The notes beneath the pieces were generated by a model. It did no database searches, was not told the DNA's origin, and saw nothing but the letters and a program-made list of their open reading frames with translations. Both the position numbers and the translations under genes were made by a program. DNA of 64,000 nucleotides from Theodoxus fluviatilis (taxonomy: Eukaryota; Mollusca; Gastropoda; Cycloneritida; Neritidae). The stretch spans positions 81,260 through 145,259 of the forward strand of contig JAWQFJ010001320.1 in NCBI GenBank assembly GCA_034096865.1, given 5' to 3'. Below, one piece after another: positions 4,813 through 64,000 of the stretch. Each line of letters opens with the position of its first letter. Position 1 is the stretch's first letter.

Positions 4813-7317
4813 GTTTAGGCAGCCAACACCAACATGCTGGTGAAACTGCTGCACTTGGGGGTTCCGGGGGGATGGGGGGGGGGGGGTGGAGGAAGGGATG
4901 GGTGGGTGGGGGGGAGAGGGATAGGCGGGGGAGGGGGAGGTTTTAAATCAGATCAGCCATCCTGGCCTGGAAGGCTGCCAGGGATGGCGCTGTCACTGAG
5001 TCCTCGGGCAGCCCATTCCATTCTATGGTGGTGCGAGGGAAGAAGCTCATCTGTCTGTAGGTGGTTTTGTGGGAGAGGATTTTGTAGTTCAGGCAGTGGG
5101 AGTGGCGGGAGCTGCGTATGGGTGGAAAGGCGGTGGGGGAGTATTTGGTGTTGATGGACGTCAGGCCATAGTGGAACTTGTAGAAGGCGCTTAGTCTCGC
5201 CCGCTTCCTTCTTCTAGCCAGGGATGGCCATTTCAAGTCCACCAGCATCCCCCCCCACACTAGAAGTTTGTCTAAAGCGGTTGGACACCCACCTAGCGGC
5301 TCGTCGCTGCACTTTCTCAATGGCCTCGATGTCATCGGCCGTATGGGGATCCCACACTGGAGCGGCATATTCCAACACGGGGCGGACAAGCGCTTTATAG
5401 GTGGCAGCTTTGGTGTTCTTGTTGTGGATTTTGATGTTCCGTCGAAGGAAACCAAGTGTCTTGTTGGCTTTACTAGTGATTTTACTGATGTGTGGGCCCC
5501 ATCTCAGATCTTTGGAGAGTGTGACGCCAAGGTACACCACTTGGGGCTCTTCCTGCAACTGATGGCCATGGAGATGGTACCCACGTTTCCTGGTGGTTCG
5601 GCTGCGGGTCATGTGGACTGCGGAGCATTTCTCGGGGTGGAAGGTCATCTTCCAGCGCTGCTCCCACTTCGCCAGCTTGTCCAGGTCAATCTGGAGGGCA
5701 TCTTGGTCTTGGTCGCTTGAGACGTCCTTATGGCAGGCTGTATCATCAGCGAAGAGTCTGGCTTGTGAGGTCAGGTTGGTCGGAAGGTCGTTGATGTAAA
5801 GCAGGAACAGTAAAGGCCCCAGGACTGAGCCCTGGGGGACGCCTGACTCTACAGGGACGAGTCCGGAACTTGTGCCATTGACGACCACAACCTGCTTCCT
5901 GTCACTTAGGAAATTCTTAATCCAGTTGTTGGTCCCGCCGGAGATGCCATAGTGGCGTAGCTTGTGGACGAGTAGACTGTGGCTGACCTTGTCGAAGGCC
6001 TTAGAGAAGTCCAGTACGAGAAGGTCCGTCTGGAATCCACGCTCAAGCACCTCTGAGGCCTCGTCCAGGAAACCGAGGAGCTGGGTCTCGCATGAGTGAC
6101 CGCGTCGGAAGCCATGTTGTTCTGGGCAGAGGATGTTGAATTTCTCGCAGTAGTTCATGATGTTGCTCACGATAATGTGTTCGAGCACTTTGCATAGTAC
6201 GCTAGTAAGGCTGATAGGTCGATAGTTCTCAGCCTTGTAGCGCTCGCCCTTTTTGAAGATGGGGCTGACATTTGCTGCCTTCCACTCCAAAGGGACCACG
6301 CCCGTGTCGAGAGAGGTCTGGAAGAGGAGTGTGAGCACCGGGGCCAATTCCGTTGCAAGCTCCCTGACGACGCGGGGCGAGATCCCATCGGGGCCACAGG
6401 CCTTGGTGGGGTCGAGGTCTCGCAGCTTCTTCTCCACACCGGTGGTGTTGATGTGGATGTCTTCTAATGGTGGATAGATGGGGTGATGGGGAGGCATGGG
6501 GCATCTCATGGCGAACTCCTCTTCACTGAAGTCTTCTCTGGTACTGAATGCCGACTGGAATTGTTTATTCAGGATCTCAGCTTTTTCCAGGTCATCTGTC
6601 ACTAGTTTTCCCGCGACTTTCAGGGGCGAAATGCCAGAGTGTTCGTTCTGCTTCGACTTGATGAAGGACCAAAACTTCTTGTTGACATGAGGTTGGTCAG
6701 TGGAGTCGACGGTGATGAGGCCTTCAATGTACTTCCAGTACTGTCTGCGAATCCTCTGGTGGACTTGTTTCAGGATCTTATAGGCCTCCTTGAGATCTTC
6801 CCTCCCTGTTTTCTTATACTTTTTGTGGATCCTGTCACGTCGACGGATGATCTTCAATGTCTCGTCGTCGAGCCACGGAGGGTTTCTTCTTGGGCCCAGC
6901 TTCTTGTGTGGTACGAACAGCTGGATGCGCTCGTTAAGGCCAGCCCGGAGCTCCCTCCAGATCACCTCAGCGTCGGGGTCTTGTTGGTGGGTGGATAGGA
7001 TGGAGTCGCTCAGTTCTCCGGTAGAAGAACGCATGCCGTCCCAGTCAGCTTTGTTGTAGCATGGCACCATGAGTTCTTTCTGTTTGGTCCGCGCTGGCTT
7101 TAACTGTAGCTCTGCGTAGACGATGCAGTGGTCTGAAACGCCTGGCACTATCTCGAGGCGAGGAAATAGGTTGGGGTGGTTGGTGACAATCAGGTCGAGA
7201 ATATTTCCCCCGCGGGTTGGTGTGTCGACTATTTGGCCTAGTCCGTGGTCAGCAAGCATGTCCTTGAACTGGTGATGAAGACGTGGGTAGGCAGCTCCTT
7301 GCTTAAGCGCCTCTTTC
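4813..7317 (-). mobile_element. 5'-truncated CR1/Jockey-type non-LTR retrotransposon
   Basis: Read on the minus strand, the segment starts abruptly inside the endonuclease domain, continues through a full reverse transcriptase and ends in a short G/C-rich 3' UTR. It splits the 31-bp array of the CPS1 intron, with array units directly abutting both ends. Abrupt 5' truncation and insertion in an intron are typical of target-primed reverse transcription. I could not define a convincing target-site duplication because the host array is itself repetitive. Confidence 0.85.
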
Positions 7318-7358
7318 AGGTGTCCACCTAAACTGCTGTGTTTTGTCCAGGGGTCCAT
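4943..7358 (-). pseudogene. Endonuclease-reverse transcriptase ORF, truncated and frameshifted
   Basis: The main frame (7358 to 5214, minus) begins with the C-terminal part of an APE-type endonuclease (GGNILDLIVTNHPN, GVSDHCIVYAEL) at residues about 50-90. Its first dozen or so codons read from the flanking array. The reverse transcriptase follows with PISLTSVLCKVLE, LDFSKAFDKVSH, GVPQGSVLGPLLF and the catalytic FADD. After RWVSNRFRQTSS this frame becomes nonsense, and the family C-terminus continues in another frame (ending ARMADLI near 4945). The frame change coincides with a run of eight C's near 5250 on the + strand, so one homopolymer indel, real or from sequencing, explains it. The start is missing, so the copy cannot encode a complete protein. 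Confidence 0.85.
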
Positions 7359-27397: not shown

Positions 27398-27570
27398 AAT
27401 GTTATCATGTGATGACTTCAAGCATTGCCTGATTAAACTACTTTTTCACCAGGCTGATCAGTGGTTAAACGTGTAAGAGAAATGTGCAAGAAAATGGGCA
27501 GAGAACTAGCATGAGAATCAGAATGGTGCTTAACTTGCACGTAGGAGGCATTTATGGTTGTTTGGAAGAA
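27398..27570 (+). other. RanBPM intron, short unique spacer
   Basis: Unique sequence between element copy 3 and the 42-bp array. No feature seen. Confidence 0.5.
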
Positions 27571-30500
27571 GGGACCAGCTGCTGATGTGGGGCAGGATAT
27601 ATCTGTTTGGACTGCAGGCTGATGTGGGGCAGGACACGGCTGTTTGGACTGCAGGCTGATGTGGGGCAGGACACAGCTGTTTGGACTGCAGGCTGATGTG
27701 GGGCAGGACAGGACACAGCTGTTTGGACTGCAGGCTGATGTGGGGCAGGACAGGACATAGCTGTTTGGACTGCAGGCTGATATGGGGCAGGACAGGACAT
27801 AGCTGTTTGAACTGCAGGCTAATATGGGGCAGGACAGGACATGGCTGTTTGGACTGCAGGCTGATATGGGGCAGGACAGGACATGGCTGTTTGGACTGCA
27901 GGCTGATGTGGGGCAGGACAGGACATAGCTGTTTGGACTGCAGGCTGATGTGGGGCAGGACATAGCTGTTTGGGCTGCAGGCTGGTGTGGGGCAGGACAG
28001 GACATAGCTGTTTGGACTGCAGGCTGATGTGGGGCAGGACAGGACATAGCTGTTTGGACTGCAAGCTGATGTGGGGCAGGACAGGACACAGCTGTTTGGA
28101 CTGCAGGCTGAAGTGGGACAGGACACAGCTGTTTGGACTGCAGGCTGAAGTGGGGCAGGACAGGACATAGCTGCTTGGACTGCAGGCTGATGTGGGACAG
28201 GACAGGACAGAGCTGTTTGGACTGCAGGCTGATGTGGGGCAGGACAGGACATGGCTGTTTGGACTGCAGACTGATGTGGGGCAGGACACAGCTGTTTGGA
28301 CTGCAGGCTGATGTGGGGCAGGACAGGACATGGCTGTTTGGACTGCAGACTGATGTGGGGCAGGACACAGCTGTTTGGACTGCAGGCTGATGTGGGGCAG
28401 GACATAGCTGTTTGGACTGCAGGCTGATGTGGGGCAGGACAGGACACATCTGTTTGGACTGCAGGCTGATGTGGGGCAGGACAGGACATAGCTGTTTGGA
28501 CTGCAGGCTGATGTGGGGCAGGACAGGACATAGCTGTTTGCACTGCAGGCTGATGTGGGGCAGGACATAGCTGTTTGGACTGCAGGCTGAAGTGGGGCAG
28601 GACAGGACATAGCTGCTTGGACTGCAGGCTGATGTGGGACAGGACAGGACATAGCTGTTTGGACTGCAGGCTGATGTGGGGCAGGACAGGACAGAGCTGT
28701 TTGGACTGCAGGCTGATGTGGGGCAGGACAGGACATAGCTGTTTGGACTGCAGGCTGATGTGGGGCAGGACATAGCTGTTTGCACTGCAGGCTGATGTGG
28801 GGCAGGACAGGACATAGCTGTTTGCATGCAGGCTGATGTGGGGCAGGGCAGGACATAGCTGTTTGCATGCAGGCTGATGTGGGGCAGGACATAGCTGTTT
28901 GCATGCAGGCTGATGTGGGGCAGGGCAGGACAGAGCTGTTTGGACTGCAGGCTGATGTGGGGCAGGGCAGGACAGAGCTGTTTGGGCTGCAGGCTGATGT
29001 GGGGCAGGACAGAGCTGTTTGGACTGCAGGCTGATATGGGGCAGGACAGGACAGAGCTGTTTGGACTGCAGGCTGATGTGGGGCAGGACAGGACACATCT
29101 GTTTGGACTGCAGGCTGATGTGGGGCAGGACAGGACATAGCTGTTTGGACTGCAGGCTGATGTGGGGCAGGACAGGACAGAGCTGTTTGGACTGCAGGCT
29201 GATGTGGGGCAGGACAGGACACATCTGTTTGGACTGCAGGCTGATGTGGGGCAGGACAGGACAGAGCTGTTTGGACTGCAGGCTGATGTGGGGCAGGACA
29301 GGACATAGCTGTTTGGACTGCAGGCTGATGTGGGGCAGGACAGGACAGAGCTGTTTGGACTGCAGGCTGATGTGGGGCAGGACAGGACACATCTGTTTGG
29401 ACTGCAGGCTGATGTGGGGCAGGACAGGACACAGCTGTTTGGACTGCAGGCTGATGTGGGGCAGGACATAGCTGTTTGGACTGCAGGCTGATGTGGGGCA
29501 GGACAGGACATAGCTGTTTGCACTGCAGGCTGATGTGGGGCAGGGCAGGACATAGCTGTTTGCACTGCAGGCTGATGTGGGGCAGGACAGAACACAGCTG
29601 TTTGGACTGCAGGCTGATGTGGGGCAGGACATAGCTGTTTGGACTGCAGGCTGATGTGGGGCAGGACAGGACATAGCTGTTTGCACTGCAGGCTGATGTG
29701 GGGCAGGACAGGACATAGCTGTTTGCACTGCAGGCTGATGTGGGGCAGGACAGGACATAGCTGTTTGCACTGCAGGCTGATGTGGGGCAGGACAGGACAT
29801 AGCTGTTTGCACTGCAGGCTGATGTGGGGCAGGACAGGACATAGCTGTTTGCACTGCAGGCTGATGTGGGGCAGGACAGGACATAGCTGTTTGGACTGCA
29901 GGCTGATGTGGGGCAGGACACAGCTGTTTGGACTGCAGGCTGATGTGGGGCAGGACACAGCTGTTTGGACTGCAGGCTGATGTGGGGCAGGACAGGACAT
30001 AGCTGTTTTGACTGCAGGCTGATGTGGGGCAGGGCAGGACATAGCTGTTTGGACTGCAGGCTGATGTGGGGCAAGACATTGCTGTTTGGACTGCAGGCTG
30101 ATGTGGGGCAGGACATAGCTGTTTGCACTGCAGGCTGATGTGGGGCAGGACATAGCTGTTTGGACTGCAGGCTGATGTGGGGCAGGACACAGCTGTTTGG
30201 ACTGCAGGCTGATGTGGGGCAGGACAGGACATAGCTGTTTTGACTGCAGGCTGATGTGGGGCAGGGCAGGACATAGCTGTTTGGACTGCAGGCTGATGTG
30301 GGGCAAGACATTGCTGTTTGGACTGCAGGCTGATGTGGGGCAGGACATAGCTGTTTGGACTGCAGGCTGATGTGGGGCAGGACATAGCTGTTTGGACTGC
30401 AGGCTGATGTGGGGCAGGACAGGACATAGCTGTTTGGACTGCAGGCTGATGTGGGGCAGGACATAGCTGTTTGGACTGCAGGCTGATGTGGGGCAGGACA

Positions 30501-33500
30501 TAGCTGTTTGGACTGCAGGCTGATGTGGGGCAGGACAGGACATAGCTGTTTGGACTGCAGGCTGATGTGGGGCAGGACAGGACATAGCTGTTTGGACTGC
30601 AGGCTGATGTGGGGCAGGACAGAACAGAGCTGTTTGGACTGCAGGCTGATGTGGGGCAGGACAGGACATAGCTGTTTGCACTGCAGGCTGATGTGGGGCA
30701 GGACAGGACACAGCTGTTTGCACTGCAGGCTGATGTGGGGCAGGACATAGCTGTTTGTACTGCAGGCTGATGTGGGGCAGGACAGAACATAGCTGTTTGC
30801 ACTGCAGGCTGATGTGGGGCAGGACAGGACATAGCTGTTTGGGCTGCAGGCTGATGTGGGGCAGGACAGGACATAGCTGTTTGCACTGCAGGCTGATGTG
30901 GGACAGGACATAGCTGTTTGGACTGCAGGCTGATGTGGGGCAGGACAGGACATAGCTGTTTGGACTGCAGGCTGATGTGGGGCAGGACAGAACAGAGCTG
31001 TTTGGACTGCAGGCTGATGTGGGGCAGGACAGGACATGGCTGTTTGGACTGCAGGCTGATGTGGGGCAGGACATATCTGTTTGGACTGCAGGCTGATGTG
31101 GGGCAGGACATATCTGTTTGGACTGCAGGCTGATGTGGGACAGGACATAGCTGTTTGGGCTGCAGGCTGATGTGGGGCAGGACAGAACATAGCTGTTTGG
31201 ACTGCAGGCTGATGTGGGGCAGGAAAGGACATAGCTGTTTGGACTGCAGGCTGATGTGGGGCAGGACAGAGCTGTTTGGACTGCAGGCTGATGTGGGAAA
31301 GGACAGGACATAGCTGTTTGGACTGCAGGCTGATATGGGGCAAGACAGGACATAGCTGTTTGGACTGCAGGCCGATGTGGGGCAGGACAGAACATAGCTG
31401 TTTAAACTGCAGGCTGATGTGGGGCAGGACAGGACACATCTGTTTGGACTGCAGGCTGATGTGGGGCAGGACAGGACACATCTGTTTGGACTGCAGGCTG
31501 ATGTGGGGCAGGACAGGACATAGCTGTTTGGACTGCAGGCTGATGTGGGGCAGGACAGGACACATCTGTTTGGACTGCAGGCTGATGTGGGGCAGGACAG
31601 GACATAGCTGTTTGGACTGCAGGCTGATGTGGGGCAGGACATAGCTGTTTGGACTGCAGGCTGATGTGGGGCAGGACATAGCTGTTTGGAGTGCAGGCTG
31701 ATGTGGGGCAGGACATAGCTGTTTGGGCTGCAGGCTGATGTGGGGCAGGACAGGACATGGCTGTTTGGACTGCAGGCTGATGTGGGGCAGGACATAGCTG
31801 TTTGGACTGCAGGCTGATGTGGGGCAGGACATAGCTGTTTGGACTGCAGGCTGATGTGGGGCAGGACAGGACATGGCTATTTGGACTGCAGGCTGATGTG
31901 GGGCAGGACATAGCTGTTTGGACTGCAGGCTGATGTGGGGCAGGACAGGACATAGCTGTTTGCACTGCAGGCTGATGTGGGGCAGGACAGGACATAGCTG
32001 TTTGGACTGCAGGCTGAAGTGGGGCAGGACAGGACATAGCTGTTTGGACTGCAGGCTGATGTGGGGCAGGACAGGACAGAGCTGTTTGGACTGCAGGCTG
32101 ATGTGGGGCAGGACAGGACATAGCTGTTTGGACTGCAGGCTGAAGTGGGGCAGGACAGGACATAGCTGCTTGGACTGCAGGCTGTTGTGGGGCAGGACAG
32201 GACATAGCTGTTTGGACTGCAGGCTGATGTGGGACAGGACAGAGCTGTTTGGACTGCAGGCTGATGTGGGGCAGGACAGGACATAGCTGTTTGGACTGCA
32301 GGCTGATGTGGGGCAGGACAGGACATAGCTGTTTGGACTGCAGGCTGATGTGGGGCAGGACAGGACATAGCTGTTTGGACTGCAGGCTGATGTGGGGCAG
32401 GACAGGACATGGCTGTTTGGACTGCAGGCTGATGTGGGGCAGGACAGGACAGAGCTGTTTGGACTGCAGGCTGATTTGGGGCAGGACAGGACAGAGCTGT
32501 TTGGACTGCAGGCTGATGTGGGACAGGACATAGCTGTTTGGACTGCAGGCTGATGTGGGGCAGGACAGGACATAGCTGTTTGGACTGCAGGCTGATGTGG
32601 GGCAGGACATGACATAGCTGTTTGCACTGCAGGCTGATGTGGGGCAGGACAGGACATAGCTGTTTGGACTGCAGGCTGATGTGGGACAGGACACAGCTGT
32701 TTGGACTGCAGGCTGATGTGGGGCAGGACAGGACATAGCTGTTTGGACTGCAGGCTGATGTGGGACAGGACACAGCTGTTTGGACTGCAGGCTGATGTGG
32801 GGCAGGACAGGACATAGCTGTTTGGACTGCAGGCTGATGTGGGACAGGACATAGCTGTATGGACTGCAGGCTGATGTGGGGCAGGACAGGACATAGCTGT
32901 TTGGACTGCAGGCTGATGTGGGGCAGGACAGGACATAGCTGTTTGGACTGCAGGCTGATGTGGGACAGGACACAGCTGTTTGGACTGCAGGCTGATGTGG
33001 GGCAGGACAGGACATAGCTGTTTGGACTGCAGGCTGATGTGGGGCAGGACAGGACATAGCTGTTTGGACTGCAGGCTGATGTGGGGCAGGACAGGACATA
33101 GCTGTTTGGACTGCAGGCTGATGTGGGGCAGGACAGGACATAGCTGTTTGGACTGCAGGCTGATGTGGGGCAGGACAGGACATAGCTGTTTGGACTGCAG
33201 GCTGATGTGGGACAGGACACAGCTGTTTGGACTGCAGGCTGATGTGGGACAGGACATAGCTGTTTGGACTGCAGGCTGATGTGGGGCAGGACAGGACATA
33301 GCTGTTTGGACTGCAGGCTGATGTGGGGCAGGACAGGACATAGCTGTTTAGACTGCAGGCTGATGTGGGGCAGGACAGGACACAGCTGTTTGGACTGCAG
33401 GCTGATGTGGGGCAAGACAGGACATAGCTGTTTGGACTGCAGGCTGATGTGGGGCAGGACAGGACATAGCTGTTTGGGCTGCAGGCTGATGTGGGGCAGT

Positions 33501-33983
33501 ACAGGACATAGCTGTTTGGACTGCAGGCTGATGTGGGACAGGACACAGCTGTTTGGACTGCAGGCTGATGTGGGGCAGGACAGGACAGAGCTGTTTGGAC
33601 TGCAGGCTGATGTGGGGCAGGACAGGACATAGCTGTTTGGACTGCAGGCTGATGTGGGGCAGGACAGGACATAGCTGTTTGGACTGCAGGCTGATGTGGG
33701 GCAGGACATAGCTGTTTGGACTGCAGGCTGATTTGGGGCAGGACAGGACATAGCTGTTTGGACTGCAGGCTGATATGGGGCAGGACAGGACAGAGCTGTT
33801 TGGACTGCAGGCTGATGTGGGGCAGGACAGGACATAGCTGTTTGGACTGCAGGCTGATGTGGGGCAGGACAGGACAGAGCTGTTTGGACTGCAGGCTGAT
33901 ATGGGGCAGGACAGGACATAGCTGTTTGGACTGCAGGCTGATGTGGGGCAGGACAGGACATAGCTGTTTGGACTGCAGGCTGA
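27571..33983. repeat. 6.4-kb minisatellite, 42/37-bp unit
   Basis: About 160 tandem copies of a unit containing GCTGTTTGGACTGCAGGCTG, ATGTGGGGCAGGACA and an optional GGACA. Units are 42 bp when GGACA is doubled and 37 bp when single. Variants include TTTGCACTGCAG, AAGTGGGG, ATATGGGG and GACACATCTG, and blocks of the same variant cluster, indicating local homogenisation. No frame of the minus strand contains a stop in the unit, which yields spurious frames of 1320, 1421 and 1840 codons. It lies within the RanBPM intron 25892-37699. Confidence 0.97.
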
Positions 33984-34095
33984 CTGCCAGCAGCCTCTGC
34001 ATAAGAGGTGTGACTGATCACTGTGTGGACACGGCTGACTGTTGTATGCTCAGAGCTGAACAGTTGCTGTGTGAACAGAGTTGACCAACAGCTTG

Positions 34096-34730
34096 GACAA
34101 AATGACTGCTTGGCATGGAGAAACAGTTGACTGACTGCTTGGCATGGAGAAACGGTTGAGAGAAACGGTTGACTGACTGCTTGGCATGGAGAAACGGTTG
34201 ACTGACTGCTTGGCATGGAGAAACAGTTGACTGACTGCTTGGCATGGAGAAACAGTTGACTGACTGCTTGGCATGGAGAAACAGTTGACTGACAGCTTGG
34301 CATGGAGAAACAGTTGACTGACAGCTTGGCATGGAGAAACGGTTGACTGACTGCTTGGCATGGAGAAACGGTTGACTGACTGCTTGGCATGGAGAAACAG
34401 TTGACTGACTGCTTGGCATGGAGAAACAGTTGACTGACTGCTTGGCATGGAGAAACAGTTGACTGACAGCTTGGCATGGAGAAACGGTTGACTGACTGCT
34501 TGGCATGAATGAAAAGTTGACTGACTGCTTGGCATGGAGAAACAGTTGACTGACAGCTTGGCATGGAGAAACGGTTGATTGACTGCTTGGCATGAATGAA
34601 AAGTTGACTGACAGCTTGGCATGGAGAAACGGTTGATTGACTGCTTGGCATGGAGAAACGGTTGACTGACTGCTTGGCATGGAGAAACAGTTGACTGACT
34701 GCTTGGCATGGAAGAAAAGCTGACAGGCTG
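34096..34730. repeat. 29-bp minisatellite, subfamily A
   Basis: About 22 copies of a unit containing CTTGGCATGGAGAAACAG and TTGACTGACTG, with AACGG and ATGAATGAAAAG variants. Unit length and base order match the following array (CTTGCTATGGACAGAG, CTGACTGACCA), so the two are diverged branches of one 29-bp family. Confidence 0.93.
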
Positions 34731-34789
34731 CTTTGTATGGAAATGGAGGTGAATGACCACTGGTTATGTGCAGAGCTGAATTTGAGTAC

Positions 34790-37677
34790 ATTTGATATGG
34801 ACAGAGAGCTGACTGACCACTTGCGATGGACAGAGAGCTTACCGATCACTTGCTATGAACAGAGAGCTGTCTGACCACTTGCTATGGACAAAGCTGAATG
34901 ACCACTTGCTATCGACCGAAAACTGACTGACCACTTGCTATGGACAGAGCTGACTGACCATTGCTATGGACAGAGAACTGACTGACCATTTGCTATGGAC
35001 AGAGGGCTGACTTACCACTTGCTATGGACAGAAAGCTGACTGACCACTTGCTATGGACAGGGGGCTGACTTACCACTTGCTATGGACAGAAAGCTGACTG
35101 ACCACTTGCTATGGACAGAGGGCTGAATGAGCACTTGCTATGGACAGAGGGCTGACTGACCACTTGGCTGTGGACAGAAAGCTGAATGAGCACTTGCTGT
35201 GGACAGAGCTGACTGACCACTTGCTATGGACAGAGGGCTGATTGACCACTTGCTATGAACAGAGAGCTGACCGAGTACTTGCTATGGACAGAGAACTGAC
35301 TGACCATTTGCTATGGACAGAGCTGACTGACCACTTGCTATGAACAGAGAGCTGACCGAGTACTTGCTATGGACAGAGAACTGACTGACCACTTGCAATG
35401 GACAGAGAACTGACTGACCACTTGCTATGGACAGAGTGCTGACTGACCACTTGCTATGGACAGAGCTGAATGAACACTTGCTGTGGACAGAGCTGACTGA
35501 CCACTTGCTATGGACAGAGCTGACTGAGCACTTGCTATGGACCGAGAGCTGACTGACCACTTGCTATGGACAGACAGCTGACTGACCACTTGCTGTGGAC
35601 AGAGCTAAATGAGCACTTGCTATGGACAGAGAGCTGACTGACCACTTGCTATGGACAGAGGGGTGAATGACCACTTGCTATGGACAGAGGGTTGACTGAT
35701 CACTTGCTATGGACAGAGGGTTGACTGACCACTTGCTATGGACAGAGGGCTGACTTACCACTTGCTATGAACAGAGAGCTGACTGACCACTTGCTATGGA
35801 CAGAGAGCTGACTGACCACTTGCTATAGACAGAGAGCTGACTGACCACTTGCTATGGACAGAGAGCTGAATGAGCACTTTCAATGGACAGAAAGCTGACC
35901 ACTTGCTATGGACAGAGGGGTGACTGACCACTTGCTGTGGACAGAGCTGACTGACCACTTGCTGTGAACAGAGAGCTCACCGAGTACTTGCTATGGACAG
36001 AAAGCTGACTGAGCACTTGCTATGGACAGAAAGCTGAATGAGCACTTGCTATGGACAGAGGGCTGACTGACCACTTGCTATGGACAGAGATCTGAATGAG
36101 CACTTGCTATGGACAGAGAGCTGACTGACCACTTGCTATGGACAGAGATCTGAATGAGCACTTGCTATGGACAGAAAGCTGAATGAACACTTGCTGTGGA
36201 CAGAGAGCTGACTGACCACTTGCTATGGACAGAGAGCTGACTGACCACTTGCTGTGGACAGAGCTGACTGACCACTTGCTGTGAACAGAGAGCTCACCGA
36301 GCACTTGCTATGGACAGAGAGCTGACTGACCACTTGCTATGGACAGAAAGCTGAATGAGCACTTGCTGTGGACAGAGCTGACTGACCACTTGCTATGAAC
36401 AGAGAGCTGACTTACCACTTGCTATGGACAGAGAGCTGACAGACCACTTGCTATGGACAGAGAGCTGACTGACCACTTGCTATGGACAGAGGGCTGACTT
36501 ACCACTTGCTATGAACAGAGAGCTGACTGACCACTTGCTATGGACAGAGATATGAATGAGCACTTGCTATGGACAGAGAGCTGACTGACCACTTGCTATG
36601 GACAGAGAGCTGACTGACCACTTGCTATGGACAGAGAGCTGACAGACCACTTGCTATGGACAGAGGGCTGATTGACCACTTGCTATGGACAGAGAGCTGA
36701 TCGAGTACTTGCTATGAACAGAGAACTGACTGACCACTTGCTATGGACAGAAAGCTGAATGAGCACTTGCTATGGACAGAGAACTGACTGACCACTTGCT
36801 ATGGACAGAAAGCTAAATAAGCACTTGCTATGGACAGAGGGCTGATTGACCACTTGCTATGGACAGAGTGCTTACTGACCACTTGCTATGAACAGAGAGC
36901 TGATCGAGTACTTGCTATGGACAGAGAACTGACTGACCACTTGCTATGGACAGAGTGCTTACTGACCACTTGCTATGAACAGAGAGCTGATCGAGTACTT
37001 GCTATGGACAGAGAACTGACTGACCACTTGCTATGGACAGAAAGCTGAATGAGCACTTGCTATGGACAGAGGGCTGACTGACCACTTGCTGTGGACAGAG
37101 AGCTGACTGACCACTTGCTATGGACAGAGAGCTGACTTACCACTTGCTTTGGACAGAGCTGGATGAGCACTTGCAATGGACAGAGGGCTGACTGACCACT
37201 TTCAATGGGCAGAGAGCTGACTGACCATTTGCTATGGACAGAGAGCTGACTGACCACTTGCTATGGACAGAGAGCTGACTGACCACTTGCTATGGACAGA
37301 GCTGAATGAGCACGTGCTATGGACAGAGAGCTGACTGACCACTTGCTATGGACAGAGCTAAATGAGCACTTGCTTTGGACAGAGGGCTGATTGACCACTT
37401 TCAATGGGCAGAGAGCTGACTGACCACTTGCAATGGACAGAGAGCTGACTGACCACTTGCTATGGACAGAGAGCTGACTGACCACTTGCTATGGACAGAG
37501 GGCTGAATGAGCACTTGCTATGGGCAGAGAGCTGACTGACCACTTGCTATGGACAGAGGGCTGAATGAGCACTTGCTATGGACAGAGAGCTGACTGACCA
37601 CTTGCTATGGACAGAGTGCTGACTGACCACTTGCTATGGACAGAGAGCTGACTGACCACTTGCTATGGACAGAGAGC
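34790..37677. repeat. 29-bp minisatellite, subfamily B, abutting a RanBPM exon
   Basis: About 100 copies of CTTGCTATGGACAGAGAG plus CTGACTGACCA, with many deletions of GAGA and TATGAAC, GGGCTGA or AATGAGC variants. It ends 22 bases before the exon acceptor at 37699. The sequence at the exon boundary (CCACTCATGTTGCAG, then GTGGACAG) shares CCACT, TTGC and GTGGACAG with the unit, so it may have been seeded there. Confidence 0.95.
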
Positions 37678-53803: not shown

Positions 53804-54185
53804 GTTGTGATGTGTCAGTAAAAGATTTGAAGTAGCCCAATGATCAGGGGTAAATTGTTAAAACCTTGCAAATGTGGGTGACAAGCCACTACCAAAAAAA
53901 ACCGCAATACTTTAGTGAACATGATGGATTGGTTGAGGAAGTTCATATTGGGACGATGTGACTTTGTGATGTGCACATTTACCAAGGAATGACCACAAGG
54001 CGAGTGTTGTGAAGGTGCTGGAATATAATAGATCCTCATGGTGTCTTCAAGATATACGCCAGTCCTCTCCACCCGATCGTTGCCTAGTTACGTGACGTAG
54101 TCAGGGCGCGGTCGCCCTTTGATGTGTCACATGACTTCGTGCAGCTTGGAGGCTGGTTGGTCTGCTCTCGTTAGTTCTCGATGAC
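53804..54185. other. Unique spacer
   Basis: Non-coding unique sequence between element copy 5 and the 61-bp array. No feature seen. Confidence 0.5.
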
Positions 54186-55421
54186 TTTAGAAAGCCTGTA
54201 GAACGAACATGAGCATGGCAGTGTGAGAGCTTGCACACGGCAGAAAAGGAGAAAGCCTGTAGAACGAACATGAGCAGGGCAGTGTGAGAGCTTGCACACG
54301 GCAGAAAAGGAGAAAGCCTGTAGAACGTACATGAGCAGGGCAGTGTGAGAGCTTGCACACGGCAGAAAAGGAGAAAGCCTGTAGAACGAACATGAGCAGG
54401 GCAGTGTGAGAGCTTGCACACGGCAGAAAAGGAGAAAGCCTGTAGAACGTACATGAGCAGGGCAGTGTGAGAGCTTGCACACGGCAGAAAAGGAGAAAGC
54501 CTGTAGAACGAACATGAGCAGGGCAGTGTGAGAGCTTGCACACGGCAGAAAAGGAGAAAGCCTGTAGAACGAACATGAGCAGGGCAGTGTGAGAGCTTGC
54601 ACACGGCAGAAAAGGAGAAAGCCTGTAGAACGAACATGAGCAGGGCAGTGTGAGAGCTTGCACACGGCAGAAAAGGAGAAAGCCTGTAGAACGAACATGA
54701 GCAGGGCAGTGTGAGAGCTTGCACACGGCAGAAAAGGAGAAAGCCTGTAGAACGAACATGAGCATGGCAGTGTGAGAGCTTGCACACGGCAGAAAAGGAG
54801 AAAGCCTGTAGAACGAACATGAGCAGGGCAGTGTGAGAGCTTGCACACGGCAGAAAAGGAGAAAGCCTGTAGAACGAACATGAGCAGGGCAGTGTGAGAG
54901 CTTGCACACGGCAGAAAAGGAGAAAGCCTGTAGAACGAACATGAGCAGGGCAGTGTGAGAGCTTGCACACGGCAGAAAAGGAGAAAGCCTGTAGAACGAA
55001 CATGAGCAGGGCAGTGTGAGAGCTTGCACACGGCAGAAAAGGAGAGAGCCTGTAGAACGAACATGAGCAGGGCAGTGTGAGAGCTTGCACACGGCAGAAA
55101 AGGAGAAAGCCTGTAGAACGAACATGAGCATGGCAGTGTGAGAGCTTGCACACGGCAGAAAAGGAGAAAGCCTGTAGAACGAACATGAGCAGGGCAGTGT
55201 GAGAGCTTGCACACGGCAGAAAAGGAGAAAGCCTGTAGAACGAACATGAGCATGGCAGTGTGAGAGCTTGCACACGGCAGAAAAGGAGAAAGCCTGTAGA
55301 ACGAACATGAGCAGGGCAGTGTGAGAGCTTGCACACGGCAGAAAAGGAGAAAGCCTGTAGAACGAACATGAGCAGGGCAGTGTGAGAGCTTGCACACGGC
55401 AGAAAAGGAGAGAGCCTGAGA
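54186..55421. repeat. 61-bp highly homogeneous minisatellite
   Basis: About twenty head-to-tail copies of a 61-bp unit containing AAAGCCTGTAGAACGAACAT, GAGCAGGGCAGTGTGAGAGC and TTGCACACGGCAGAAAAGGA. Only point variants (GAGCATGG, ACGTACAT, GGAGAGAG) distinguish copies. Since 61 is not a multiple of three and no frame of the minus strand has a stop, a reading frame walks through all three phases, giving a 61-residue pseudo-repeat over three units. The 439-, 420- and 553-codon frames result from this. Confidence 0.97.
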
Positions 55422-55637
55422 GGATAGATGAGTGGGAAAAGTCCTCCATAAGAAGTGATCGGGTTTTCCTGCCCTAGAGTGAGCGTGCACCAGAGAGTAC
55501 GAACACTGAGATACAGCAATCTAAGAGAGCTCATGACAGAGACAGAAGGCACGTGTAAGAGCACGGATAACAGCGATAGTGTCCTCCGAGATCCAGTCTC
55601 AAGAGTGAAGTTTTTATGGTAAAGCTGATTACAGTCG
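55422..55637. other. Unique spacer after the 61-bp array
   Basis: Non-coding sequence; no feature recognised. Confidence 0.5.
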
Positions 55638-55760
55638 AGACCGGATGTAAGAAAGTTGTCGGGACTCACTTTTTGTCTTTTATACATCCGGTCATTACTA
55701 AATCCGGTTAACCGGATGTATGAAAATATTGAGGATCGACTTTCATACATCCGGCCACGC
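55638..55760. repeat. Cluster of CCGGATGTA palindromes
   Basis: Three inverted repeats in 120 bases: GACCGGATGTA / TACATCCGGTC (55639 and 55683), the palindrome ATCCGGTTAACCGGAT (about 55702), and CCGGATGTATGAAA / TTTCATACATCCGG (55712 and 55741). The word TACATCCGG or its complement occurs four times. It may be a MITE or a recombined pair of element ends. Confidence 0.75.
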
Positions 55761-55915
55761 ATCTTTTACTTGATAAAACTAGTTTTTTTCATATCATTTT
55801 TGTTTTTATTTGTTTGTTTTTTATGTTTAATTGTGTTGATACATAGCCTAGTTAGAAGAAATGGTTTGTGAATAAAAAGAGTAAAGTACACGTACTTACA
55901 GCGTAGCGTCTGTAA

Positions 55916-58313: not shown

Positions 58314-58772
58314 TTAGACTACCTTTGTGGACACCACCCGCTCAAAATGGCCACAGACATTTCGGAGGTAAATGTTCTCCTCGGACCTGTCTACCCCATT
58401 TATCGGGAAAAGGGGTGGGTGTGGCAGCCATCTCCGCGAGCATTCGGAAGTGGCTGTGTACACCACAATGGTGGTTTGAAGGAGGGTGGCAGCCGCGAAT
58501 ATCTCTACATCCGACCCCCATGAACGGGGTCGGAGGGTGTTGTGAGCGAGATAATCACCTACATCTCCATCCACGTATGCAGAGAAAGCCTGGTGATTCC
58601 TGCACATGATGTCGATTATTTTTTCTCGGACAACCATGTGCTCGGCCTGGCTACCACATAAGTCAAGGCTTATGGCACGGTACAGGCAGTTCCCATCCCC
58701 TACAATGGGGTTTAACTTCAAAGGGACCCCAAGATCTTGGGTTGGACACCATTCGGGCAAAAACAAAGGGCC
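58314..58772 (-). pseudogene. OTU-family cysteine protease, cut by LTR insertion
   Basis: The minus-strand frame (stop near 58314) encodes about 150 residues of an OTU domain. The catalytic-site box NPIVGDGNCLYRAIS holds the predicted Asp and nucleophilic Cys; WGSDVEIFAAATLLQTTIVV and the C-terminal ENIYLRNVCGHFERVV box with the predicted His follow. OTU proteins remove ubiquitin, and similar ORFs are also carried by mobile elements, so host or transposon origin is open. At 58772 the sequence changes abruptly to the retrotransposon LTR, so any upstream part is displaced beyond the element or lost; residues before GPLF in this frame belong to the LTR. Confidence 0.75.
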
Positions 58773-60045
58773 TGTCACGTACAGAAATCCATGGTGTTTA
58801 ATTTGGATGAAATTCTGTACGTGAATACTTGTGTAATCTGTGTTATTCTGCATTTTTGTTATGTACTTGGATTTTTGCGCCTTTCGGCAATGAATTCTAA
58901 AAGGTTTGGGACAACGTCATGTTTTGGAGAGGGAATGACGTCAACGCAGGTTGCTTTAGAAAAAAAAACGTCACTACTGATCGAGTGGAGAGAGAGATTG
59001 GAAAGGTTCGAGGAAGCCGAGGACGTTGGACCAGAGGCCAAGAAAGATGAAGAAGAAGAAGAAGATGATTGACTAAGAAGAAGAGGAGAAGACGATTGAT
59101 GAAGAGGAAGCAGAAGAAGAGGACGAAGAAGGATAGCAGCACCGTCAGGCTACCATACCGACGCCTGTATCCGAGAAGAAGAAGACGATTGAAGAAGACG
59201 ATTGAATAAGAAGAAGATTGCAGAAGAGGACGGGGAGGGATAGCAGCACCGTCAGGCCCCCAGACCGACGTTCTGTATCCGTGAAGAAGAAGATTGAAGA
59301 GGAGGGGAAGAAGGATAGCAGCACCGTCAGGCCCCCAGACCGACGTTCTGTATCCGTGAAGAAGAAGAGAAATAGAAGAAGATTCAAGAAGAAGAGGAAG
59401 ACGATTGAAGAGGAAGCAGAAGAAGAAGAAGAAAACGATTGAAGAAGAAGAGGACGAAGAAGAAGAGGAGGAAGACGATTGAAGAAGAATATTAGGAAGA
59501 AGAAGAGGGAGAAGAGGAGAAGGACGTTGGCAGCACCGCCAGGTCATCAGAGAACGACGACTGCATCGGGAGGAGGGGAAGCAGAAAGACTGACGACGGA
59601 GTGGATTGGCAAGATGGACAATGAAACGTTGAGTGTTGACACGAGCAAGGATACAGCTGAAGATCCTCTGCAGGATCTCACCACCAAGGTGAAGACGTTT
59701 CAATTTTATTCGTATTGTACTGTTCTGAACTTGGAGTACACCGGGGAGAGAGAGAGAGACGCTATCCTCTGTGGGTTTTTTTGTTCGTCTTGTCCGGCCG
59801 TGTCTGTTTTGGTAGTGCGATTGAAATCGCCAGAGATTAATTGAACTACAAAGATTCATGTTTTGTATAATTAAATAATTATATTGTTAACAACTGTTTA
59901 TTTTTCTTTGGCTGAATCTGAGAGAGAAATATAACGGTTGTAACATCAAGCAACCCCAAGACGGTTGTGACATCTGGTGACCCCAAAGACTAGGCTCTAA
60001 CATATTGGTGACCCCGATTTTCTCCAGCGTTAAAAAGCTGTGACA
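58773..60045 (+). repeat. 5' LTR (right boundary uncertain)
   Basis: Starts TGTCACGTAC. Near the start, TCACGTACAGAA (58775) and TTCTGTACGTGA form a 12-bp inverted repeat. The middle (about 59040-59510) is GAAGAAGA-rich with three to four copies of GGATAGCAGCACCGTCAGGC. The end may lie at 59945 (TAACA), about 59974, 60002 or 60045 (GTGACA), because the end-plus-primer-site sequence is itself repeated four times. Confidence 0.75.
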
Positions 60046-60060
60046 TCTGGTGACCCCGAC
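59975..60060 (+). promoter_or_regulatory. Candidate primer-binding sites, repeated
   Basis: TGGTGACCCC occurs at 59975, 60006 and 60048, each shortly after an ACAT sequence (GTGACATC, TAACATAT, GTGACATC). A fourth, altered copy (AACATCAAGCAACCCC) starts at 59943. The 60048 copy, followed by GAC, is nearest the ORF. The tRNA primer was not identified. Confidence 0.5.
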
Positions 60061-60242
60061 TTTTCATGCTTACTTTTGATGTCGGAGTTTTGAGGTTGCG
60101 AAATTTTTGGTCAGGTTTTGCCTCGAAGACTGAGTAATTGTTCAATGTGAGTTTGTGTTGTTGTGACAGTTGTGTATTTGAATGCCCGCCATCCCACCCT
60201 GTTCATTATCTCTAGGTTTGTTCCTTGTTGATAATTTCTATC

Positions 60243-63200
60243 ATGTCGGAGGAAGATAGCAGGGAGAGTTCTAGGATGAAGACTGAGGAGATGGATGAGG
60301 CGCAGCTGTTCGAGTTTTACTCACAGATAGCAGAGAAAATTAAGATGCGGGGCGATAGATTAGCAGACTTTGTTTCTGGTCATGTTGAGAAAGAGTTGCT
60401 GCGTCGAGAACAAACAAAAGAAAGACAATCAAGATTGGAGATGGAAGGGAAGCAAATGGAAGAAAGAATGGCTTTAGAGGAAAAGAAATTGGAGCATGCA
60501 AAATGGGAACTGCAAGAAAAGTTAAAAGCAAACCCAAACTATCAGGAGCATGCAAAGTCTAGCTACAAACCTACACTTCCCAAATTACCACTCTTCAAGG
60601 AGGGAAAAGATGACATTGATGCGTTTCTCTTCAGATTTGAGAATCACGCTAGGGCAGCTGGTTGGGTTCAGTCGCAGTGGGCAGCGTGTGTGGCAACATT
60701 GCTAGAGGGGTCTGCGTTGTCTACATACCATTGTTTGGCTGCTTCGGGTGCTCTGGATTACGAGACCTTGAAGAAGAACCTGCTAATAAAGTTTCGATGT
60801 ACTGCTGAAGGTTTTAGAGAACGGTTCCGAGCTGCTAGACCAGTGAGTGAGGAAGGCTTCAGTGCATTTGAGATCAAGCTGAGGCATTTGCTTGATCGTT
60901 GGTTAGACCTGTCGGAAACTCAGAAAACCTTTGATGCTGTTTGTGAGAGAATGCTGTGTGAACAGTTCCTGCACAGTGTTTCGAAGGACCTGGCCACGTC
61001 ACTGGGAGAACGCTTAGACGTATCAACTGCGAAGCTAAAGGACCTGGTTGAGGCTTCGGATCGGTACAGAATGGCTCATCCAGACAAAAATTTGGCTAGA
61101 AAGCCAGAGACAACTGTACTGGGTAGTGTTGGCGTAGGAGATAGGCACAAGGAGTCATTCAACTTGAGAGGGTTTTCCCAAAATCGGGGTTTTCATAGAG
61201 GTCATGGTGGGGGCAGGGGATTTCCCACGGGTCAGCAAGGGAGGCAGGAAAACTCAAGACAGGCACAAAAATCAAATCAAAATGTTCCTGACAAGAAACA
61301 TTACGTCCCTTTCTCAGGTGAATGTCATAACTGCAAACAGAAAGGACACAAGGCGAAGGATTGCTGGTCCAGAAAGAGCACTGGGTGGTCACCTCAAGGT
61401 CAGTTGAGAGGTCAGTCAAACTCGGGTCAGTTTGGATCTTCAGCGCTGAGTCTTTTGTCAGCTTCAGGATCTATCTTACCAGTTGTTCAGGGTTCAGTCA
61501 ACGGCAAACCAGCGAAGATTCTTCGTGATACTGGTGCTACTTGTGCTGGAGTTAAGAGGGCACTGGTGCAACCAGATCAGTTCACAGGTCAAGAACAACG
61601 GGTTACTCTGTTTGAAGGTGCAGAGGATGTTTTTCCGTTGGCTTCTGTTTGGGTTGACTCACCGTTCTACACAGGGCAGCTTTTGTGCGTGGTCATTGAT
61701 AACCCATTTGCTGACATTATTCTGGGAAATGTCGATGGTGTTATTCCTTCTGTAGCACAGATGATGGACATGGTGCAGAAAGCTGGAAGTTTGAGGAGGC
61801 AGAGGGGTGAGACTGCAAATGTCTTGACACGGGCTCAGACGAAACGGGGTATGCCGGACACAGGGCGATTTATTCGTCGGGGGCCGAGGCTGAGACCGCA
61901 GGGACCACGGATACCCATCGCTGATGCCATGGGAATGGGACGGTTCCCTGATGGTCAGACGGTACCAGCGGCTGCTCGGCAACAGAGACGCATGGAGGCC
62001 GAGGATCGCCGACAGCGGGAGACTGAGGCGAGGGACATCACGGCACGCCACGCCATTGAGTACGAGGAGAAGTCGATGCTGATTGAAAAGAACCTGGGCC
62101 TGCAGGCTGACCTGAGCAAGGCCGGCGTGGACTACGAGAGGCTGAGGCGTGAGGCTGCCGCCCGCCAGGAACAGGACCATGCCAACATCCTGAACCTTCA
62201 GTCCCAGCTCAAGGACTTCCGCCAGCAGTTCGAGGAGACCACAGAGGCCCACAAGAGGGAGGTCAAGAACCTGAATGCCAACATCCGGGACGTGGCACGC
62301 CAGCAAGATGCAGTCCTGCGGGAGCTGGCAGAGCTAAAGACACAGCTGAAGCTGGTAGAGGAGACCCGTGATGTCATCCGCCGTGACCTCATCGAGGTCA
62401 ACCGCCTGGTCACAGACGACAAGCAGAGGATGGATGTGCTGGAGGAGCAGAAGGCTGGCGTGGTGAAAGAGGCTGGGGAGCTGCGTGCCAACCTGCGTGA
62501 GGTGGAGAAGGCGCGCTTGGACGCACGTCGTGAGCTGCGGGAGCTGAGACACCAGGTGAAGATGCTGGAGAAGCTGACCAAGGAGAGGCAGCAGATGGAA
62601 TACAAGCTGGCAGCTGCTGAGGCCCGCATCCAGGAGCAGAGTGGGTCCCACAAGCAGCAAACGGCACGCCTGGAGTCTGACCTGGCAGCCAGACAGGCCG
62701 CGCTGGATGCTGCTCAACGGGAGGCCAAGCAGAGCAGCGAGATGGACCAGGAGATGGCTGACTATGAGGGGACTGTGATGACGCTCAACAATCAGGTAGC
62801 TACAAAGGAGACGGATATCCAGAGGCTGGAGGAACGCAACAAAGCCCTGCAGGAGCAAGCAGACGGCGTTGAGGAGCAGGCAACAGTGAAAACAGAGATG
62901 GAGGCGTTGCAGCAGGGTGCCAGGGAGAAGAAGCTAAAGAGCCTGGAGACTGCCAGACAGGAGGCCGAGGATGCCGGGAGCGAGCGGCAGGCAGAGAAAC
63001 GGAAGCTGGAGAAGCGTGTTGCACAGCTGGAGGTGGGAGGCGTGTCCCCGGCTGCCTTTGCATCCAGCAACTCCGTCCCTGTCAAGGCCAAGGAGGCCAA
63101 GGCAGGCGGTGATGATGATGACGAAATCGACGTGTTTAGGGACGAGGCTGACGAGGAGGAGTCTCGTGGCGCTAGGGACGCTACATCAATGAAGCGCTTG

Positions 63201-63296
63201 GAAAGTCTTGAGAAAGAGTACAGGAGCCTGAAGAAGACTCAGGATGACCTGAAGAAGTTGGTGGAAGAAGTACGAAGAAGAAGAAGACGGTGGTAG
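60243..63296 (+). CDS. Gag-protease-rootletin-like fusion polyprotein
   Basis: A frame of 1017 codons from the ATG at 60243 (MSEEDSRES; an in-frame ATG at 60225 also exists). Residues 1-110 are a charged, helical leader. About 115-290 is a retrotransposon Gag core (LPLFKEGKDDIDAFLFRFEN and following). A CCHC zinc knuckle (CHNCKQKGHKAKDC) starts at 361. A retropepsin has catalytic DTGA at 429-432 and ADIILGNVDG near 495. After VLTRAQTKR at about 530, where a pol would continue to reverse transcriptase, the product becomes a roughly 450-residue coiled coil. Its stretch EAGELRANLREVEKARLDAR plus RELRELRHQVKML (from 743) closely resembles rootletin (CROCC), the ciliary rootlet filament protein. 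Codon third positions become markedly G/C-rich from about 61850, like the host exons here and unlike the gag part. I infer capture of a processed host rootletin segment. The frame is intact. Confidence 0.82.
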   Translation: MSEEDSRESSRMKTEEMDEAQLFEFYSQIAEKIKMRGDRLADFVSGHVEKELLRREQTKERQSRLEMEGKQMEERMALEEKKLEHAKWELQEKLKANPNYQEHAKSSYKPTLPKLPLFKEGKDDIDAFLFRFENHARAAGWVQSQWAACVATLLEGSALSTYHCLAASGALDYETLKKNLLIKFRCTAEGFRERFRAARPVSEEGFSAFEIKLRHLLDRWLDLSETQKTFDAVCERMLCEQFLHSVSKDLATSLGERLDVSTAKLKDLVEASDRYRMAHPDKNLARKPETTVLGSVGVGDRHKESFNLRGFSQNRGFHRGHGGGRGFPTGQQGRQENSRQAQKSNQNVPDKKHYVPFSGECHNCKQKGHKAKDCWSRKSTGWSPQGQLRGQSNSGQFGSSALSLLSASGSILPVVQGSVNGKPAKILRDTGATCAGVKRALVQPDQFTGQEQRVTLFEGAEDVFPLASVWVDSPFYTGQLLCVVIDNPFADIILGNVDGVIPSVAQMMDMVQKAGSLRRQRGETANVLTRAQTKRGMPDTGRFIRRGPRLRPQGPRIPIADAMGMGRFPDGQTVPAAARQQRRMEAEDRRQRETEARDITARHAIEYEEKSMLIEKNLGLQADLSKAGVDYERLRREAAARQEQDHANILNLQSQLKDFRQQFEETTEAHKREVKNLNANIRDVARQQDAVLRELAELKTQLKLVEETRDVIRRDLIEVNRLVTDDKQRMDVLEEQKAGVVKEAGELRANLREVEKARLDARRELRELRHQVKMLEKLTKERQQMEYKLAAAEARIQEQSGSHKQQTARLESDLAARQAALDAAQREAKQSSEMDQEMADYEGTVMTLNNQVATKETDIQRLEERNKALQEQADGVEEQATVKTEMEALQQGAREKKLKSLETARQEAEDAGSERQAEKRKLEKRVAQLEVGGVSPAAFASSNSVPVKAKEAKAGGDDDDEIDVFRDEADEEESRGARDATSMKRLESLEKEYRSLKKTQDDLKKLVEEVRRRRRRW

Positions 63297-63829
63297 AAGC
63301 ACTTCTTTGTGCTGACTCTGATGCTGTGCCAACCGGACAAATAACTTTCGCAGAGGGAGACGCAGAGAGAGAGAGAGAGAGAAAAAAAAAGTTTCAGCGT
63401 GCAAATTTCTTGTCGGCTGATTATACTTGGATATGCACTATTTTAACCAGGAGCGTGTCATATTTTAACATTGAGTTTTTGGGCTGTCGTTGCATTGTGG
63501 TGGGTTTCTTAATTCTTTGTGTAAAGAAGCTTCATAGTTTGGCATTATTTGGTGTGTGTACCTATAATGACAGATATAAATATTATTGGTTGTTTTCTCT
63601 TCTCAGTCCTGAAAGATTGATGAGTGAATTTTTTGGGAGCAATTATTTCTGCAATAGTGAGTGGTAACTGTCATTTCGTACTGAGAGAATTGCTTCTACT
63701 GTTTGGAATGCCAAAAACACTTTTAGTACAAGCGTATCATTCTGTTATATCAAAAATGAGAGATAGGAGACTATTGTCAAAAAAAAAGCAAACTGGCATT
63801 TGTTTTTTTTTGTTCCCGGGTAAGGGAGG
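63297..63829 (+). other. Retrotransposon 3' untranslated region
   Basis: Non-coding tail between the fusion ORF stop and the 3' LTR, with a (GA)n patch at 63366-63382 and an AAGGGAGG purine tract directly before the LTR. No RT, RNase H or integrase motif was seen. Confidence 0.75.
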
Positions 63830-64000
63830 TGTCACGTACAGAAATCCATGGTGTTTAATTTGGATGAAATTCTGTACGTGAATACTTGTGTAATCTGTGT
63901 TATTCTGCATTTTTGTTATGTACTTGGATTTTTGCGCCTTTCGGCAATGAATTCTAAAAGGTTTGGGACAACGTCATGTTTTGGAGAGGGAATGACGTCA
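63830..64000 (+). repeat. 3' LTR, first 171 bases
   Basis: Identical by eye to 58773-58943, beginning TGTCACGTACAGAAATCCAT. Truncated by the window end. Confidence 0.93.

Follow-up and report, generated by a model that had tools for sequence, protein, structure and literature searches.

The question raised by the window analysed here (64,000 nucleotides of Theodoxus fluviatilis DNA, contig JAWQFJ010001320.1, positions 81,260 to 145,259) is how a long terminal repeat (LTR) retrotransposon came to carry host coiled-coil sequence in frame behind its Gag. The element occupies the last part of the window, and its single intact frame (60243-63296, + strand, 1017 codons) fuses Gag-protease to host coiled-coil sequence, as read from the open reading frame list and the translation. 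A preliminary description had proposed that the element itself captured rootletin. The rest of the genome (965 Mb in 19,668 contigs, numbered here with a C) makes it very likely, instead, that the window element is a non-autonomous recombinant LTR retrotransposon of stepwise origin, with a host module replacing pol. First, LTR elements whose primer site is of the tRNA-Pro type would have taken spectrin and rootletin pieces from spliced host mRNAs as coiled-coil frames, some of them also taking probable GRIP golgin and eEF1B-type pieces, most likely by reverse-transcriptase template switching between co-packaged RNAs. Second, a shortened form of the larger module would have replaced the integrase, reverse transcriptase (RT) and RNase H of a Gmr1-like element, in frame and at a short microhomology. 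Third, the recombinant would have spread to at least 28 places using the proteins of pol-keeping Gmr1-like relatives.

The fused frame and its element

The first 535 codons of the frame are Gag-protease and the remaining 482 are the captured part. A SCAN-type Gag was recognised (Pfam PF02023, 28.8 bits against a cut-off of 27). The CCHC knuckle and the retropepsin scored under their Pfam cut-offs, in the expected order, and their motifs (CHNCKQKGHKAKDC and RDTGA, respectively) are legible in the translation. The proposed order of Gag, knuckle and protease followed by a coiled coil in one frame was therefore confirmed. No integrase, RT or RNase H domain was found in the frame by Pfam, so this is not an autonomous LTR retrotransposon. 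LARD and TRIM elements have an internal region without a long coding frame; the 1017-codon frame places the window element outside both classes.

GC at third codon positions rises along the frame from 0.45 to 0.74, with the best single change point at codon 583 (61989). A composition shift at the join had been described earlier, and homology places the join itself at 61844-61848, compared to the 61850 originally given. The terminal repeats 58773-58943 and 63830-64000 are 100% identical over 171 nt, the whole comparable length because the window ends where its contig (C1312) ends; the earlier view of a young element with identical LTR segments (171/171 nt) holds. The 5' LTR has two candidate ends, the GTGACA at 60045 that precedes the best primer site and an earlier GTGACA at 59972, and the 3' LTR is cut. 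Two weaker copies of the primer site lie directly upstream of the best one. The primer sites were assigned to tRNA-Trp and tRNA-Pro by comparison with tRNA sequences. The features of the element are as follows.

58773..60045, + strand: 5' LTR, starting TGTCAC; from the identical 171-nt repeat, other genomic LTR copies and ends read from the sequence
60048..60060, + strand: primer-binding site TGGTGACCCCGAC, 13/13 against the tRNA-Trp 3' end
60243..61843, + strand: Gag-protease part of the frame (Pfam and translation); pol (integrase, RT, RNase H) absent
about 60807-61058, + strand: SCAN-like capsid (Pfam)
about 61320-61364, + strand: CCHC knuckle (sub-cut-off Pfam match and motif)
about 61485-61727, + strand: retropepsin (sub-cut-off Pfam match and motif)
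61844..61848, + strand: 5' join, ACGGG common to C4382 (Gmr1-like) and C9785 (module-bearing)
61844..62066, + strand: first module segment, no donor matched; its part 61844-61987 lies close to where the module frame begins in C9785, C4364, C2051 and C4570, and C9659 and C908 contain it too
62067..62569 (about), + strand: rootletin-derived segment (structure, protein and host-exon matches)
62564..62879, + strand: spliced exons of the host gene on C2014 (94% over the first 158 nt, a second stretch at 81% with gaps, and 20 nt more)
62880..63001, + strand: coiled-coil segment, no donor matched, also in other module-bearing elements
63002..63161, + strand: match at 92% to an eEF1B-type exon of C1462, up to the GTAAG donor of the host
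63240..63270, + strand: start of the same C1462 exon, 93.5%, order swapped compared to the host gene
63356..63709, + strand: 3' region, 98.3% identical to C4382; 3' join within about 63332-63355
63818..63829, + strand: polypurine-tract-like run before the 3' LTR, read from the sequence
63830..64000, + strand: 3' LTR (identical repeat), cut by the contig end

A frame for an OTU-like cysteine protease (58314-58853, - strand; Pfam OTU 59.6 bits, cut-off 23.3) overlaps the element, its first codons falling within the 5' LTR, which starts at 58773.

Host genes in the captured part

The coiled coil found its best matches in rootletin, both among solved structures (6l5j, 3.8e-26) and in the protein database (a 2081-aa protein with a Rootletin Pfam domain, 3.3e-15). 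Together with two fish rootletins (about 3e-5) it made up the three matches obtained among the best 7999 candidates. The rootletin assignment proposed earlier was thus right for part of the insert: rootletin accounts for about 500 nt of roughly 1450, the rest being probable GRIP golgin, eEF1B-type and donor-less pieces.

Host exons were found for several of these pieces, at 92-95.5% nucleotide identity and with GT or AG at the exon edges. Window positions 62436-62569 are 95.5% identical to an exon of an intron-bearing host rootletin gene on C17987, preceded by an AG acceptor and followed by a GT donor; the window departs from rootletin inside this exon. Positions 62564-62721 and 62720-62862 correspond to two exons on C2014 which lie approximately 1.1 kb apart in the host and meet in the window element exactly where the host has its GT/AG sites; another 20 nt of the element (62860-62879) correspond to sequence farther along C2014. 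A GRIP domain is encoded on the same strand of C2014, about 17-21 kb downstream of the matched exons, and this donor is therefore probably a GRIP golgin. On C1462, an EF1_GNE exon lies 4.8 kb downstream of the matched exon, on the same strand; the 63240-63270 piece is upstream in the C1462 gene and downstream in the element. Host splice sites mark the junctions or ends of the pieces, so the capture ran through mRNA. By these matches the captured part is a mosaic of rootletin, a probable GRIP golgin and an eEF1B-type gene.

The eEF1B idea for the tail (62574-63293) originated from a comparison with human EEF1D. Pfam, structure and protein-database searches with the tail gave nothing convincing. 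The whole tail scored 83 against human EEF1D (shuffle maximum 75, n = 300), and its last 57 residues were not significant in the same comparison (12 of 300 shuffles reached the score). The eEF1B-type assignment was settled by the host exon match on the contig with EF1_GNE. The NCBIfam matches were to generic SMC/Rad50 coils and scored far under the cut-off.

Copies, pol-bearing relative and other carriers of the module

Genome-wide counts are lower bounds (only the best candidate matches were scored). The captured part had at least 51 genomic matches, 26 of them (the window's own included) spanning 1426 nt or more of the 1449 at 98-100% identity, and Gag-protease had at least 52. Gag-protease adjoined the captured part at the same base in 28 of the 29 longest captured matches, on 26 contigs with the window included; this count, which answers the earlier call for a copy number, omits 22 diverged or partial captured-part rows and 13 of the 52 Gag-protease rows (twelve pieces of nt 1-313 and one small piece on C8331). 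An assembly join of two loci at 61850 had been named as what would overturn the fusion, and the end of the window at a contig end would suit it, just as the readiness of coiled coils to yield false matches would suit a chance similarity. The same-base junction rules out the join, and with the identity of the pieces to host exons bordered by GT or AG, the probability left to either explanation is negligible. The fusion is a real, multiplied element.

Gag was full in 15 of the 28 joined copies and short in one. The other 12 lack Gag nt 313-907, and because this segment is missing from so many amplified copies it is dispensable in cis. Eleven of the 39 counted Gag-protease rows lie on contigs lacking a long captured match. 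The full 1605 nt of Gag-protease were present in C4382, C11562 and C5544 (97-98%) and in C13792 (92%). The start of the LTR matched at 97-100% in 40 of 40 scored places, out of 223 candidate places.

One chimera copy (C1345:29500-38500) is interrupted by another element, whose Gag-protease is 31% alike and has a CCHC knuckle. The inserted element has an Arg/Trp-rich repeated tail resembling the module tail, and the captured-part matches on either side of the insertion have 6 nt in common, as a target-site repeat would give.

A pol-bearing relative is present on C4382. Its Gag-protease is 98% alike that of the window, and beyond the same point it continues into an integrase (H2C2, rve) followed by RVT_1 and RNase H. 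C4382 was the one relative lacking the module in which the sequence downstream of Gag-protease was examined. Its 3' region is 98.3% identical to the window over 357 nt (window 63356-63709). Integrase upstream of RT is described as a mark of the Gmr1 clade (PMC6238403; PMC8220671), and the SCAN domain as a descendant of a Gmr1-like Gag (PMC3424704). The Gag-protease of the window element, with its SCAN-type Gag, is classed by sequence as Gmr1-like Ty3/gypsy; the order of integrase before RT is taken from C4382, the window element itself having the host mosaic where pol would be.

Intronless rootletin-like frames were also found on C2051, C4570, C18734, C18765, C4364, C908, C9785, C16430 and C9659, the copies on C2051, C4570 and C18734 being 97-99% alike. 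Spectrin repeats were recognised by Pfam in four of these frames (C2051, C9785, C9659 and C908), and in that of C2051 the solved-structure search matched spectrin as well as rootletin. A genome search with spectrin gave at least 67 matches (150 of 169 candidates scored): two or three repeats each in C908, C4364, C2051, C4570, C18734, C9659 and C9785, and exon-sized pieces in C1862, C3223, C14038, C815 and a small number of other contigs. In C9785, the spectrin part is 94% identical to C1862 83891-84065 and 86% to C815. Two adjacent spectrin repeats about 16 nt apart (C1862:11261-12031, + strand, with the contig's numerous spectrin matches on the other strand) are possibly a further element copy.

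C9785, C9659 and C16430 matched all three donors read (rootletin, C2014 and C1462). C908 and C2051 matched only rootletin among the three, with no match to C2014 or C1462, which indicates that a smaller and a larger module exist. Splicing is evident in these elements as well: two rootletin exons are fused across the host intron in C908 and C2051, and three C2014 exons (139, 237 and 166 nt) are fused without introns in C9659. Spliced host pieces are therefore present in other LTR elements; the way in which they were taken up would be template switching.

The LTRs of C9659 are 94.4% alike, have TG..CA ends and are flanked on both sides by CTTAG. Visible terminal repeats of 438 nt, 100% identical, border the C2051 copy; those of the C4570 and C18734 copies are about 1.7 kb long (99.6-99.9% identity). 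The primer sites of C2051, C908 and C9659 are perfect tRNA-Pro-type, compared to the tRNA-Trp type of the window. The window LTR gave no alignment with the LTR pieces of C2051, C9659 and C908; TGTCAC at the start and GTGACA at the end are nonetheless common to the window LTR and those of C9659. LTRs were not found in C9785, and its primer site had no tRNA match within one mismatch.

Since these LTR elements, with unalignable LTRs and another primer site, carry longer host pieces, the host capture probably happened in them, outside the window element, and the claim that the window element made the capture was given up. A single transduction of rootletin by the window element would fit the in-frame join and the clear rootletin match. 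It is very improbable: there are three identifiable donors, the same three recur in C9785, C9659 and C16430, and in C9785 and C9659 the modules are longer than that of the window, include spectrin and sit in elements without the window's LTR. One capture of a chimeric transcript, from a host gene assembled by exon shuffling at the DNA level, would also fit the shared mosaic. We consider this improbable, as no intron-bearing chimera was recognised in the loci read (no systematic search was made), the swapped order of the eEF1B-type pieces would be unusual in a gene, and neither C908 nor C2051 matched C2014 or C1462.

The window element has its sequence in common with C9785 from 61844 on and with C4382 before that point, and at the join C4382 and C9785 share ACGGG, two or three other bases and then ATGCCG. 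The structure demonstrates that the module replaced the pol domains; the transfer would have run from a module-bearing element into the Gmr1-like one, by a template switch. Compared to C9785 and C16430, the window element is also missing 168 nt (56 codons) at one point, where a 12-nt repeat (62394-62405) is found. This repeat and the shared bases at the join are marks that template switching would leave. The copies of the recombinant are observed; pol-keeping relatives would have mobilised them in trans.

In C16430 and C6873 the module follows another CCHC protein and starts at window position 62107. These two loci are 97% alike over 1202 nt and are perhaps two copies of one join. In the C16430 protein, Pfam gave 18.3 bits for the knuckle (cut-off 20.8) and recognised nothing in the remainder, so that in our reading the Gag label follows from the CX2CX4HX4C motif. 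If this protein is a Gag, the module and Gag have been joined twice.

Elsewhere in the window, a 714-codon frame (5214-7358, - strand) resembles a non-LTR retrotransposon reverse transcriptase by eye. Very long tandem-repeat frames (PHQPAVQTAMSC and similar) occupy 27433-34849 (- strand), a satellite-like array that stays open, and 61-bp tandem repeats are open as long frames at 54101-55762 (- strand).

Coding constraint and meaning of the fusion

Selection within the family was assessed by comparing 11 copies with the window and counting unique variant codons. The captured part had 41 nonsynonymous to 15 synonymous variants (neutral about 3.4:1) and Gag-protease had 37.5 to 23.5 (neutral about 3.5:1); the captured part was thus the less constrained of the two. 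The aligned codons of the 11 copies contained no stop. Compared to the window, dN/dS of six elements ranged from 0.49 to 0.98. Five codon-aligned pairs gave 0.58, 0.78, 0.54, 0.52 and 0.91, and only the 0.54 and 0.52 pairs, both with C16430, exclude 1. Indels within the blocks aligned between the window and C9785, C16430 and C9659 came to 21, 6 and 9 nt, respectively, each divisible by three (the count covers the inside of blocks, not the breaks between them). In simulations, 100 random changes kept the captured frame open in 2.4% of the runs, and the aligned blocks of the window and C9785 contain 94 differences and no stop.

These data bear on whether the coiled-coil module benefits the element, for example by multimerising Gag or tethering particles to the Golgi, to the centrosome or to networks of spectrin, and whether selection maintains it. 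The presence of the module behind two different Gag-like proteins (the window family and C16430/C6873, with a different CCHC knuckle), the indel lengths, the open frames and the two pairs with intervals below 1 all favour a functional fusion. It is nevertheless doubtful: three of the five pairs fail to exclude 1, the six-element values reach 0.98, the captured part is less constrained than Gag-protease, some copies are frameshifted (among them C8525 and one on C3808), and stops interrupt the aligned module of C9659 (four) and of C908 (one). By these comparisons the coding constraint on the module is at most weak, and the element most likely gains little or nothing from the fusion protein. Tentatively, the host cassette (spectrin, rootletin, probable GRIP golgin and eEF1B) might be a transferable part of LTR elements, carried by at least three backbones (the tRNA-Pro elements, the Gmr1-like element and a third with the other Gag-like protein) with two independent Gag fusions, and under weak coding selection because a Gag-coil protein helps them; this is a possibility well short of the stepwise origin in likelihood.

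Several points weigh against the recombinant, stepwise origin of the window element. The two low dN/dS values with C16430 are unexpected for a pure passenger. A 5-nt run shared at the join would prove little by itself, and template switching there is an inferred event. The direction of transfer is drawn from the longer pieces in C9785 and C9659 and not from a tree. The comparison of C4382 with the window is confined to Gag-protease and the 3' region. C2051-type elements have also been recently active, as the terminal repeats of the C2051 copy (100% over 438 nt) indicate. Expression and mobilisation of the window element are predictions from its sequence.

The closest precedent is Bs1 of maize, an LTR element in which, according to a review, segments of a plasma-membrane ATPase, a xylan endohydrolase and a beta-1,3-glucanase form a chimeric gene (PMC13317346). 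The likeness is one of workings, with no kinship claimed: the window element is also an LTR element without its own RT, with several intronless host-gene pieces. It differs in having animal genes (rootletin, and spectrin in the related modules), at least 28 joined copies, a retained Gag-protease frame and related modules in several LTR elements. The earlier statement that host-gene capture by LTR elements in frame with Gag is rare needs to be qualified by this several-gene precedent. LTR-mediated retroposition (Tan et al. 2016), by template switching at microsimilarities between LTR elements and host mRNA, is described for mosquito, zebrafish, chicken and Drosophila in a review (PMC5408686). 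Host mRNA is copied into LTR elements there too; the window element differs in holding at least three donors in one amplified frame. Our literature search gave no report of this host-gene mosaic among the matches listed.

Oncogene-transducing retroviruses carry host coding sequence in place of pol, in frame behind gag, and are moved by a helper. The window element likewise has host sequence for pol in frame behind Gag, as the preliminary description held; here, however, it is a multi-gene mosaic with copies in a genome assembly. One genome appears to hold the stages: intron-bearing donors, long spliced pieces, shortened versions, the recombinant and a pol-keeping relative. From such stages one could read directly how the LTR elements of an animal take up and exchange host genes step by step, and they offer a natural series for asking whether Gag fusions to host coiled coils have an effect.

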